Assembly: GCF_025136295.1 (NCBI RefSeq)
Contig: NZ_CP062788.1
Coordinates: 3,489,588-3,553,587 of the forward strand
Direction: 5' to 3'
DNA length: 64,000 nucleotides
Source of the DNA: Aestuariispira ectoiniformans
GTDB taxonomy: Bacteria > Pseudomonadota > Alphaproteobacteria > UBA8366 > Aestuariispiraceae
A model generated the notes under the pieces. It was not told the DNA's origin. It did not search any database and worked only from the letters and a program-made list of their open reading frames with translations. Within the stretch, counting starts at the first letter, position 1. Each line of letters starts with the position of its first letter. This document shows, piece after piece, positions 36,945 to 40,175 of the stretch. The translations under genes and the position numbers were made by a program.

Positions 36945-38318
36945 CTATGCCCGACGCCATTCGGTGACACCACCGGGTTTGTCATCCAACAGAATACCAC
37001 GCGCCTTCAGGTCATCACGAATTTTGTCAGCCATCGCGAAATCCTTGGCTTTCTTGGCCTCCAAGCGTTGCTGGATCAGGGCCTCGATCTCCGCATCATC
37101 GTCGGAGGCACCGCCCTTCAACCAAGCGTCCGGGTCCTGCTGCAACAGCCCCAGCACCGCACCATTGCCCAGGACGCGGGCCTTTGCAGCGGCTTTCTCC
37201 TCATCCGACCGCGCCTTGTTGAGCGCGCCCATGGCATCATGGAGCCCCGCAATGGCGAGCGGCAGGTTCAGGTCGTCCTCAAGCGCCGCCAGCAAAGCCT
37301 CGTCAGCTTTGGGCTCCACCTCAATCGCGGCCACTTCGCGCAGACTGCCATACATCCGGTCCAGCATGGCTTTGGCATCCGCACATTTGGCCTTGGAGAA
37401 GTCCAGCGGCTGGCGGTAATGCGACTGCAAAATCACCAAGCGCAGCGCTTCCCCCGGAAACTCTTCCAGCAACTCATGGACGGTGTAGAAGTTGCCCAAG
37501 GACTTGGACATCTTCTCACCTTCGGACATGAGATAGCCGTTATGCATCCAGTAATTGGCAAATTTGCCGGACGCATTGCCGCAGCAGCTCTGTGCAACCT
37601 CGTTCTGGTGGTGCGGGAAGATCAGGTCCAGACCACCGCCGTGAATGTCAAACTGCTCGCCCAGATGCTTGGCGCTCATGGCAGAGCATTCGATATGCCA
37701 ACCCGGACGGCCACGGCCCCAGGGGCTGTCCCAGCCGGGGGTGTCATCATCGGAAGGCTTCCACAGCACGAAATCCGCTGCATCCTTCTTATAAGGAGCC
37801 ACCTCGACACGCGCACCCGCCTCCAGTTCCTCGCGGTCCTTATTGGCGAATTTGCCATAATCGGGCCAGCTTCGCGTATCGAACAGAACATGACCTTCCG
37901 CCGCATAGGCGTGGCCCTTGTCGATCAGGGCCTGAATCAGGTCCTGCATTTCCTGAATATGGTCGGTTGCGCGCGGCTGCACATTGGGCGCAAGGCAGCC
38001 GAGGCTTGCCGCATCATCCTGGAACTGCTGGTTGGTGCGTTCGGTCAGGCTCCGAATATCTTCGTCATTTTCGGCCGCACGCTTGTTAATCTTGTCATCC
38101 ACATCCGTGATGTTGCGGACATATTTGACCTGATCCCCGCCATATTCCGCGCGAAGCAACCGGTAGAGCACATCAAACACCACCAGCGGCCGCGCATTGC
38201 CGATATGGATATAGTCGTAGACCGTCGGGCCGCAGACATACATGCGGACATTCTTCGCATCAATCGGTTCAAAATCCACTTTCTGGCGGCGGGCGGTATC
38301 GTAAATTTTCAAAGCCAT
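36945..38318 (-). CDS. cysS: Cysteinyl-tRNA synthetase
   Basis: This 457-residue class I synthetase has the zinc-site and HIGH region [16 protein letters not shown] (about residues 29-44), the [14 protein letters not shown] zinc ligands ([14 protein letters not shown], about 201-214) and the KMSKS loop [10 protein letters not shown] (about 266-275). The C-terminal anticodon-binding part ends with [12 protein letters not shown]. The start at 38318 follows CGGAAGACCC; an in-frame ATG 51 bases upstream lacks a ribosome site. It leads the cysS-cimA-mtnN-trmJ unit. Confidence 0.97.
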
Positions 38319-38379
38319 GGGTCTTCCGGTGTTCTTTTTATGGCGCGGAAACGCGCGAAATAACATCAATTGTCCTGGA

Positions 38380-38399
38380 AAAGGTCGGGTTTGTCCCGA
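38380..38399 (-). terminator. Weak terminator after the 37-residue peptide gene
   Basis: On the minus strand TCGGG-ACAAA-CCCGA (38385-38399) is followed by CCTTTT. It lies 34 bases after the peptide stop codon and 60 bases before the cysS start. Confidence 0.45.
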
Positions 38400-38432
38400 T
38401 CGGCTGTTCCGTATGTCCGGGGCAGGGCCGGA

Positions 38433-38546
38433 TCAACAGCAACAGCCGCCGGTAATCGGCGGCCAGGTGATCGGAAACAGGGCACAGGCAATCGCAACCG
38501 GGAATTGGTCGTTACGGATTGCCGAGATTTCATGTGACTTGGTCAT
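38433..38546 (-). CDS. 37-residue peptide ending in GGCCC, unknown function
   Basis: A short frame reads MTKSHEISAIRNDQFPVAIA, then CALFPITWPPITGGCCC and TGA. It has its own promoter-like hexamers (TTGTTT, 16 bases, TATAAC at 38578-38605), an AAGGG ribosome site eight bases before the ATG, and a weak hairpin with T tail after the stop. The N-terminal half is polar, the centre hydrophobic and Pro-rich, and the end is Gly-Gly followed by three cysteines, suited to metal binding or processing. The third codon positions are mixed but plausible. It sits between tetR and cysS, 65 bases after the tetR stop. I know no matching family, and it could still be fortuitous. Confidence 0.4.
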   Translation of the reverse strand: MTKSHEISAIRNDQFPVAIACALFPITWPPITGGCCC

Positions 38547-38577
38547 CACAAAGGCCCTTCGTTTAAATCGTCCGTCG

Positions 38578-38605
38578 GTTATAGCGAGGCTTGCCGAAAA
38601 AACAA
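38578..38605 (-). promoter_or_regulatory. Predicted sigma-70 promoter of the 37-residue peptide gene
   Basis: On the minus strand TTGTTT (38600-38605) and TATAAC (38578-38583) are 16 bases apart, about 30-60 bases upstream of the peptide ATG. The -35 box lies within an A-rich/T-rich segment right after the tetR stop. Confidence 0.45.
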
Positions 38606-38611
38606 AGTTTT

Positions 38612-39172
38612 TTAGCCCAGAAGGGTCGCGACAAACCGTTCCAGATTTTGCCGGACAAAGTCATCAACAGGCTGATCCGGTTCAAACCCCCACCACAATA
38701 CTGTCCCCTGCCATTGCGTGAACAGCAGAGAACCGATGCCATCAGGCGCAGCGGGAGTCCCCTCGAAACACGCCTCCAGACGGGCTGACAATGCTTCTTT
38801 CCAGGCCACCCCACGCCTCCGCAGGACCGGATCGCGAAAGTCCTCCCGCAAGACCAGCAGACTGTCGGAATAGCTTTCGGCGTCCCTGCAATCACCGGAC
38901 AGGGCAACCAGTATGTCCACCGCGCCCGCAGGCGTCTTCGGCATTTGCCCGGCAAGGTCTTCGGTCCGGGTATCCAGCCGATCCCAGGCATGCAGCAACG
39001 ATGCCCGGACAAGTCCTTCCTTGTTTTGAAAGCGCTGGACAAGTGTTGCAGCGGACAGGCCGCTTTCCTTAGCCAACGCGGCAAAGGTCAGGGAGGCGGG
39101 GCCGCAAGTCTGGATCATCCTGAGTGCGATATCGAGAACCCTGGCGTCGGGAATTTTCTTCGGGCGTGACAT
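38612..39172 (-). CDS. TetR-family transcriptional regulator
   Basis: This is a 186-residue regulator. The N-terminal helix-turn-helix is at about residues 8-52: RVLDIALRMIQTCGPASLTF, LAKESGLSAATLVQRFQNKEGLV (quoted as GLSAATLVQRFQNKE). The ligand domain is C-terminal and ends in RFVATLLG. The start at 39172 is chosen over an ATG 12 bases upstream; either is possible. It is divergent from an SDR gene, 94 bases away, with a nearly perfect 26-bp palindrome between them. So it probably represses itself and that reductase. The inducer is unknown. Confidence 0.92.
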   Translation of the reverse strand: MSRPKKIPDARVLDIALRMIQTCGPASLTFAALAKESGLSAATLVQRFQNKEGLVRASLLHAWDRLDTRTEDLAGQMPKTPAGAVDILVALSGDCRDAESYSDSLLVLREDFRDPVLRRRGVAWKEALSARLEACFEGTPAAPDGIGSLLFTQWQGTVLWWGFEPDQPVDDFVRQNLERFVATLLG

Positions 39173-39183
39173 CTTGACTCTCA

Positions 39184-39209
39184 TTTATAAACGAATATTC
39201 ATTTATAAA
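39184..39209. promoter_or_regulatory. Palindromic operator between tetR and the SDR gene
   Basis: The 26-bp element reads TTTATAAA-C-GAATATTC-A-TTTATAAA, with one mismatched pair. It begins 12 bases from the tetR start and is about 60 bases from the SDR start. Size, symmetry and position are those of a TetR-family operator. Confidence 0.65.
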
Positions 39210-39266
39210 TAAACTTGAGGACTTTGCAAAGTCCATCCCGATAAGGCTGCAAATTCGGAGACGATC

Positions 39267-40175
39267 ATGAAACTGGAAGGGAAAGTGGCTCTCGTTGCGG
39301 GAGGCACACGCGGCGCCGGACGTGGCATTGCCATTGAACTGGCAGCAGCAGGCGCAACCGTCTATGTCACGGGCCGCACGACACGTGAACAGCAATCAGA
39401 GTATCTGCGCCCGGAAACCATAGAGGAGACCGCGGAATTGGCATCGGCTGCGGGTGGCGCCGGCATCGCCGTCCAGGTCGATCACCTGATTGTAGAACAG
39501 GTCGAAGCGCTAATTGAGCGAATCCGAAAGGAACAGGGGCGGCTGGATATTCTGGTGAATGATATCTGGGGTGGCGAGAACCTTGTGGAATGGAACAAAC
39601 CCGTCTGGGAGCATGACCTGAGCAAGGGCCTGCGCATGATGGAGCTGGGGCTCAACACCCATCTGATCACCGCCCGTCACGCCCTGCCCCTGCTGATCGA
39701 AAAGCCCGGCGGATTGTTGGTGGAGATGACCGATGGCACCGCCAGCTATAACGCCGCCAATTACCGTCTCTCTCCCTACTATGACCTGGTAAAGAATGCC
39801 GTCATCCGCATGGCCTGGGCTCACGCCCAAGATCTGGCAAAGCATAAAGCAACCTCCGTCGCCCTCACCCCCGGCTGGATGCGTTCCGAAATGATGCTGG
39901 AGATATTTACAGTTACCGAGGACACCTGGCGGGACGCTTGCGAGAATGAGCCGCATTTCGCTATTTCCGAAAGCCCCCGCTATGTGGGCCGCGCCGTTGC
40001 GGCACTCGCTTCAGACCCAGACCGCGCCCGTTGGAACGGCCAGGCACTCAGCAGCGGCGACCTCGCCAAACACTATAGCTTCACCGACGTTGACGGCAGC
40101 CAGCCCGATGCCTGGCACTATATCCCCGACGTGGCCGACGCCGGGAAACCGGCGGATGTCACCGGCTACCGCTAA
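39267..40175 (+). CDS. Short-chain dehydrogenase/reductase under TetR control
   Basis: This 302-residue protein has an SDR cofactor motif AGGTRGAGRGIA (residues 11-22), the YVTGRTTR segment typical of NADP preference, and a VNDIWGGE motif where classical SDRs have NNAG. The active-site serine/tyrosine region is atypical: EMTDGTASYNAANYRLSPYYDLVKNA carries Tyr and Lys in YxxxK form as YYDLVK. It therefore belongs to the divergent atypical SDR group. The C-terminus (after about residue 235) is longer than in classical members. Substrate unknown. It is convergent with the DUF1801 gene. Confidence 0.85.
   Translation: MKLEGKVALVAGGTRGAGRGIAIELAAAGATVYVTGRTTREQQSEYLRPETIEETAELASAAGGAGIAVQVDHLIVEQVEALIERIRKEQGRLDILVNDIWGGENLVEWNKPVWEHDLSKGLRMMELGLNTHLITARHALPLLIEKPGGLLVEMTDGTASYNAANYRLSPYYDLVKNAVIRMAWAHAQDLAKHKATSVALTPGWMRSEMMLEIFTVTEDTWRDACENEPHFAISESPRYVGRAVAALASDPDRARWNGQALSSGDLAKHYSFTDVDGSQPDAWHYIPDVADAGKPADVTGYR

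Follow-up and report, generated by a model that had tools for sequence, protein, structure and literature searches.

A candidate Cys-sensing attenuator in the cysS mRNA leader of Aestuariispira ectoiniformans and its relatives

Gene organization and features upstream of cysS

The window analysed here, the whole 64,000-nucleotide stretch of the Aestuariispira ectoiniformans contig NZ_CP062788.1, carries on its minus strand a gene for a TetR-type regulator (38612-39184) followed by cysS (36945-38318), which encodes cysteinyl-tRNA synthetase (Pfam tRNA-synt_1e at E 4e-123, together with CysS_C) and is the proposed target of the leader described below. All of the intervening features lie on the same strand. 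A -35-like box TTGTTT (38600-38605) and a -10-like box TATAAC (38578-38583) are separated by a 16-base spacer and match the consensus at 8 of 12 positions. A Shine-Dalgarno-like GAAGGG (38555-38560) is separated by 8 bases from the ATG at 38546, which opens a leader frame of 37 codons plus stop (MTKSHEISAIRNDQFPVAIACALFPITWPPITGGCCC; 38433-38546, with the stop codon at 38433-38435); the frame would be one codon longer if the GTG at 38549 were the start. The encoded peptide ends in Gly-Gly-Cys-Cys-Cys and has a further Cys at codon 21, giving four Cys among 37 residues, three of them adjacent, a richness in cognate codons of the kind expected of an attenuator. The three adjacent codons UGU UGC UGU (38436-38444) are the proposed sensor.

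A conserved element (38396-38456), recovered both by a consensus fold and by a leave-one-out model, contains a hairpin, P1, with a 5' arm CCGGCGGCUGUU (38441-38452) that takes in part of the Cys run and a 3' arm AACAGCCGAUCGG (38396-38408). An alternative to P1 is the hairpin 1:2, GCCGCCG-AUUAC-CGGCGGC (38445-38463), which overlaps the end of the leader frame and is one of two terminator-like sites in a terminator scan (2.3 in shuffles). The minimum free energy fold of the whole leader includes P1 containing the Cys codons and a weak 5-bp stem followed by CCUUUUCC.

A preliminary description of this small unit (promoter-like boxes, ribosome site, a frame ending in GGCCC, and hairpins) had its coordinates and composition right, as read from the sequence, including the GCCGCCG/CGGCGGC hairpin at 38445-38463. 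The promoter pair that it named is present, but a stricter scan of 37400-39600 returned no promoters (1.0 in shuffles), so that the leader promoter taken by itself is weak. The terminator-like hairpin that it placed 60 bases before the cysS ATG is also present (UCGGG-ACAAA-CCCGA followed by CCUUUU; 38379-38399), but its stem has just 5 bp, its tail four U, and the terminator scan omits it from the sites listed.

The leader frame by itself is unusual yet not decisive. When the 300 bases preceding cysS were dinucleotide-shuffled, a frame of 8-70 codons with a run of three Cys appeared in 7 of 4000 shuffles, and the leader RNA folds with a z-score of -2.83, an equally stable fold occurring in 1 of 200 shuffles. 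Across the genome that holds the window, a pattern of three Cys codons followed by TRR is found at 84 sites, as against 33 for its reverse; by our own reading, 24 of the 84 end in a stop, one of them being the leader. The 23 remaining sites of this Cys-Cys-Cys-stop type were set aside as not leader-like: 22 are inside open frames of at least 120 codons, and L332 is flanked on both sides by genes of the opposite strand. A looser pattern with two mismatches has 75 sites (reversed, 33); 30 of these had loci, and nothing came of the 29 peptides and 7 surroundings that were viewed.

Leader frames and a conserved hairpin in related genomes

The strongest support for the leader comes from comparison with relatives at the level of sequence. 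A collection based on CysS matched 55 of 59 related genomes and gave 30 loci, and a second collection took the best 80 of 375 relatives among named genomes; removal of duplicates and of the partial cysS genes L027 and L138 left 94 distinct upstreams. We found a leader frame over the shared hairpin P1 in 11 of the 14 cysS upstreams of the window's family, which comprises 14 genomes on the Rhodospirillales side of Alphaproteobacteria. These are L001 (the window), L003 (identical in sequence to Curvivirga aplysinae), L009 and L014 (Hwanghaeella), L015 (Pacificispira), L016, L017, L019, L022, L025 and L026. The NCBI taxonomy places Curvivirga aplysinae and Aestuariispira insulae, both of this family, in Rhodospirillales. 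Ten of the 11 leaders have two to six Cys codons and one (L022) has a single one, bearing out the expectation that Cys-rich short frames would precede cysS in relatives. Endings directly before the stop include VICCCPAEISIMGGCCC, IICCIMGGRCCC, PCRIICGCRCC and MAFTIDIIGIICGCRARGGRWRC. The closest relative by CysS (79%), Aestuariispira insulae (L002), has a frame MSANMQAKPVKIRRDCCRRSR whose two Cys codons belong to a hairpin's 5' arm, which, read by eye, would raise the family leaders to 12; no leader was visible in the cysS upstreams of L021 and L023. Frames with at least two Cys in four residues occur in the last 200 nt of 8 of the 14 family upstreams (shuffle mean 1.7; antisense 0). Eight of the 11 leaders have a TTGC[CA]A-16/18-TATAGT pair whose end lies 35-41 bases ahead of the leader ATG; this pair is missing from the window, L003 and L019.

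We aligned the 11 family leaders from AUUA onward, where they share the pattern AUUAY..GGCYG..RGYC. The unaided RNAalifold consensus is P1, with 10 pairs, two of which are changed on both sides; the exchanges are U-G/U-A/C-G and C-G/U-A/G-C/G-U. Treated as an 11-pair helix, P1 has 93.4% of cells able to pair as against 19.6-67.0% when the arms are slid, and its covariation score is 0.301, whereas shuffles average 0.192 (none of 500 as high). P1 exceeded the slid or shuffled controls on four of five measures; the number of pairs changed on both sides was no higher than in shuffles, 91 of 500 of which reach it. A leave-one-out model (R2) was built from the ten leaders other than the window, and its top match in the 64 kb was the window copy at E 0.0049, the next being 0.068; these E-values are rough, the fragments having been trimmed by eye. 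The full model gave a single notable match in the window's genome, the leader, at E 3e-8 (next, E 1.1), a value that is circular because the window leader belongs to the model. By these sequence comparisons, the leader frame with its Cys codons, its position before cysS in the family and the conservation of P1 are established.

These results also bear on two readings of the frame that do not involve control of cysS. That it arose by chance in a GC-rich spacer is very unlikely: the frame is short, and its shuffling frequency of ~0.002 comes from a single locus that an earlier reader had picked, but its recurrence across the family, the covariation of P1 and the leave-one-out recovery argue against coincidence. 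The preliminary description had likened the peptide to metal-binding or processed peptides, which would make it a small functional product. Apart from that analogy, the idea draws on the CysCysCys terminus; the peptide has no Pfam match at E 0.1, and the family peptides vary in sequence and in length (21-37 residues) while the RNA hairpin and its place before cysS persist. We consider such a product extremely improbable.

Predicted competition between terminator and antiterminator

To follow the folding of each leader during translation, a ribosome footprint was masked at each codon and the probability of the terminator, P(terminator), was then computed. A clean terminator/antiterminator switch was predicted only in the relatives L009 and, with reservations, L019; it is for these two that the models have a ribosome at Cys codons deciding between the exclusive folds. 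In L009, P(terminator) is 0.00-0.10 when the A site is on any of codons 9-13, among them Cys12, and 0.98-1.00 at codons 4-8 and from codon 14 to the stop. In the predicted stalled state P1 pairs GGCGGCC, which is also the 5' arm of the terminator. In L019, P(terminator) is 0.00-0.01 at Cys15 and Cys16 and 0.79-0.92 at codons 10-14 and from codon 17 onward, and it is low (0.00-0.25) at codons 1-9 as well. The terminal CysCysCys of L003 lowers P(terminator) from 0.74 without a ribosome to 0.02-0.03, and codons 21-23 and the stop take it as low as the Cys run does. The low-terminator state is therefore not unique to Cys, as codons 1-9 of L019 and codons 21-23 and the stop of L003 produce it too.

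Other family leaders gave varied outcomes. P(terminator) in L015 is low for codons 1-10 (Cys6 included) and high afterwards. It is at least 0.81 at all codons but two in L016, L017, L022, L025 and L026, the two exceptions both being Gly beside Cys (0.41 in L022 and 0.19 in L026). The terminator chosen for L014 hardly forms, with P at most 0.16. Terminator-like hairpins with T-rich tails follow the leader in L003, L009, L015, L016, L017 and L019. These hairpins argue against Cys-dependent control acting through Rho-dependent termination or through initiation of cysS translation and not through an intrinsic hairpin, which we regard as quite improbable, even though the intrinsic terminator of the window is weak and the available text of PMC1262725 describes mycobacterial cys leaders as lacking a conserved terminator hairpin and suggests Rho.

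The window copy was folded under 18 settings, and the outcome varied with footprint, transcript length and temperature. P(terminator) is 0.16-0.94 when no ribosome is present, and an A site at Cys21 gives 0.95-0.97. At Cys35 it spans 0.01-0.79, the values of 0.01-0.06 arising only with the largest footprint and the others lying at 0.35-0.79; it is 0.80-0.98 at Cys36, 0.43-0.91 at Cys37 and 0.03-0.23 at the stop codon. No clear switch at the Cys codons is therefore predicted for the window, and a ribosome waiting at the stop codon would favour read-through. Competing terminator and antiterminator folds are predicted in two relatives; for the window, mask folding gives no clean switching at the Cys run and argues neither for nor against a switch at Cys35-37.

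Two wirings of the window copy may be envisaged from the folding. P1 itself may serve as the antiterminator, with the end of its 3' arm doubling as the 5' arm of the terminator: when the element is folded alone, the last four bases of the P1 3' arm (to 38396) coincide with the terminator 5' arm (38395-38399), and in the whole-leader fold the terminator coexists with a shorter P1. Alternatively, UUUCCGAUC of codons 24-26 (38469-38477) may act as the antiterminator strand by pairing with GAUCGGGACA (38392-38401), as predicted by folding.

An ancestral Cys attenuator may also have decayed or been rewired in the window lineage, leaving a CysCysCys that owes its presence chiefly to the P1 5' arm GGCUGUUGCUGUUGA being read in that frame. 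The acting Cys codon of L009 stands in UGC CGC AUU, and the window equivalent, by eye, is UGG CCG CCG AUU; such a loss of the upstream control codon, the ambiguous mask folding and the weak terminator would all accord with decay, and GGCUGU occurs in the P1 arm of 9 of the 11 family leaders whatever the peptide. However, P1 and the leader frame, together with its stop codon and final GGCCC, are retained in L003 at ~70% CysS identity, and P1 shows compensatory changes. We consider decay or rewiring of this kind unlikely.

Distribution of Cys-rich frames across Alphaproteobacteria

Cys-rich frames before cysS were also seen in several other alphaproteobacterial groups. At least two Cys in four residues were found in the last 200 nt of 32 of 80 alphaproteobacterial upstreams, the family included (shuffle mean 9.2; antisense 4), a set that is not independent and whose class label was assigned by exclusion (L122, titled Oceanobacillus, is among its members). 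The corresponding count for gammaproteobacterial upstreams was at the shuffle level (1 of 14; shuffle mean 1.4; antisense 1), with L134, titled only Proteobacteria, among these controls.

Several recurring or extreme peptides were observed before cysS. A second class, RSHRCCCPG..RITA/G or similar, ends 60-64 bases upstream of cysS in uncultured Alphaproteobacteria (L068, L069, L075, L079, L080, L085, L086, L088, L090 and L095), and a third, ITLPxCCTGGGC or similar, occurs in L099, L102, L103, L106-L108, L112, L113, L115 and L124. L210 (genome G160) has an extremely Cys-rich frame of 41 residues (MAQDIKQNKSCKCGCGCACCTCTSCDCCHGCSKDCSCGCCA) ending 59 bases before cysS; it has no Pfam match at E 0.1 and may be a metallothionein-like peptide or an extreme leader. 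L243 (G112) has a minimal leader-like frame, MMYKFLNCCRCCC, with its stop 48 bases before cysS.

A survey of the class located 125 cysS places in 123 of 124 genomes and covered 110 upstreams (the 30 loci and 80 more), two of them shortened by contig ends. Among 106 new class upstreams, 46 had at least two Cys in five residues, many being wrong-frame readings of the upstream gene, and about eleven were leader-like by eye (L155, L167, L180, L187, L188, L190, L192, L194, L219, L224 and L243). A shared core motif was picked after the data had been seen; in a frame with at least two Cys it occurs in 10 of the 14 family upstreams (shuffle mean 0.25). Outside the family, 15 of 172 alphaproteobacterial upstreams have it, where shuffles average 1.9 with a maximum of 6 and the antisense count is 1. 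The covariance model R1 found no leader in 69 loci (66 non-family loci together with L021, L023 and L002, whose leader it missed), nor in 95 of the 106 class loci, where it gave only E 0.058 to 0.88. It matched 8 of 289 class genomes: two are family members already in the model, five have matches away from the cysS place, and the last is G301. Shared ancestry of the alphaproteobacterial cysS leaders is thus hinted at by the core motif but not by the covariance model.

Upstreams of other Cys genes were scanned at 14 cysE and 30 cysK/M loci of relatives, the window's genome contributing one cysE and two cysK/M-like genes (other cysK-like matches had no locus), and no recognisable leader was found before any of them. 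Frames with at least two Cys in five residues occur in 9 of 14 cysE and 11 of 30 cysK/M upstreams, and frames with three in five occur in 3 of 14 and 0 of 30. Other open frames of at least 80 codons overlap 11 of 13 cysE frames and 12 of 14 cysK/M frames, leaving four without such overlap (L278, L288 and two in L314). A conserved Cys-rich frame, PPCxGCGCRNRAIGA, before cysE in the window's genome and in relatives (L279, L283, L287 and L288) could fool a leader scan; it was rejected as an artefact because each of the four loci inspected has it antisense to a conserved gene (MPEVIINGPEGRLEGRY..HPHPQHGGTMNNK).

Discussion

Since the product of cysS charges tRNA-Cys, Cys codons in a leader ahead of this gene invite a reading as an attenuator. 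We conclude that the window element is probably a cysS mRNA leader that acts as a ribosome-mediated transcription attenuator sensing charged tRNA-Cys. Attenuation was also the interpretation given in the preliminary description, and it is supported as the best one by the conserved hairpin and by the competing folds of two relatives, but its claim of a very good fit went too far for the copy in the window. We infer transcription, translation, stalling and polarity as follows: the transcript would begin just past the tetR stop, and the 37-codon frame would be translated. With ample Cys-tRNA the ribosome would complete the frame and depart, and the terminator before cysS could form. With Cys-tRNA scarce it would stall at Cys codons, in the window presumably the final three, and the hairpins would rearrange; an antiterminator would capture the 5' arm of the terminator, and polymerase would continue into cysS.

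Switches of this general kind are known, and the window leader adds a clade for which no report was found. Classical attenuators are described by a scheme of regions 1 to 4, and a 2020 paper reportedly deals with polycysteine attenuators in mycobacteria. In the model folding of L009, a stalled ribosome would similarly cover region 1 and free region 2. The accessible text on trp-type attenuators, such as Sinorhizobium trpL (PMC10117765), describes the same use of control codons and mutually exclusive hairpins; these respond to another amino acid, and the window differs further in that its Cys run lies inside region 2 and not over region 1. Leaders with Cys runs have been predicted before cys operons in Actinobacteria (PMC1262725). 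As far as the available part of that source goes, these resemble the window in having a Cys run near the leader stop and a downstream gene proposed to be controlled through Cys, but they precede cys operons and cbs and not cysS, belong to another phylum and have no conserved terminator hairpin.

The idea of a Cys attenuator for cysS is itself not new, because uORFC-8-2, in the accessible portion of its report, is described from 145 examples found exclusively before cysS of Rhodobacterales, with characteristics of ribosome-mediated attenuation, and is presumed to be a Cys attenuator (PMC8632094). Compared by description only, and within what that portion gives, uORFC-8-2 and the window leader are both short AUG frames with adjacent Cys codons, placed directly before cysS in Alphaproteobacteria; uORFC-8-2 has a pair of stems, its Cys codons lying in the first, and a 3' U run, and the same logic was proposed for it (PMC8632094). 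Its tandem Cys codons are usually 14 and 15, whereas those of the window are 21 and 35-37, the latter directly before the stop of a longer frame, and the window's family lies on the Rhodospirillales side. For bacteria other than Rhodobacterales, searches of the open-access literature turned up no description of a cysS leader of this type, and a search of Rfam 15 returned no family at the cut-off for the leader, with sub-threshold matches on the other strand. More tentatively, and with considerable doubt, the cysS leaders of many alphaproteobacterial orders might go back to one old Cys-sensing ancestor with a shared core of Cys codons followed by AUUAY..NGC..UGA and a hairpin, uORFC-8-2 being its Rhodobacterales branch; the sensor codons would then have moved over time, in the window lineage from ahead of the hairpin to within its 5' arm.

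CysS is required for all protein synthesis. A leader with Cys codons before its gene would provide a simple feedback in which the level of the synthetase is tied to that of charged tRNA-Cys. Because such leaders occur beyond the one order reported, with differing peptides and sensor placement, this type of control is suggested to be wider in Alphaproteobacteria than reported, and the variety of the leaders lets the rewiring of an attenuator be traced through evolution.
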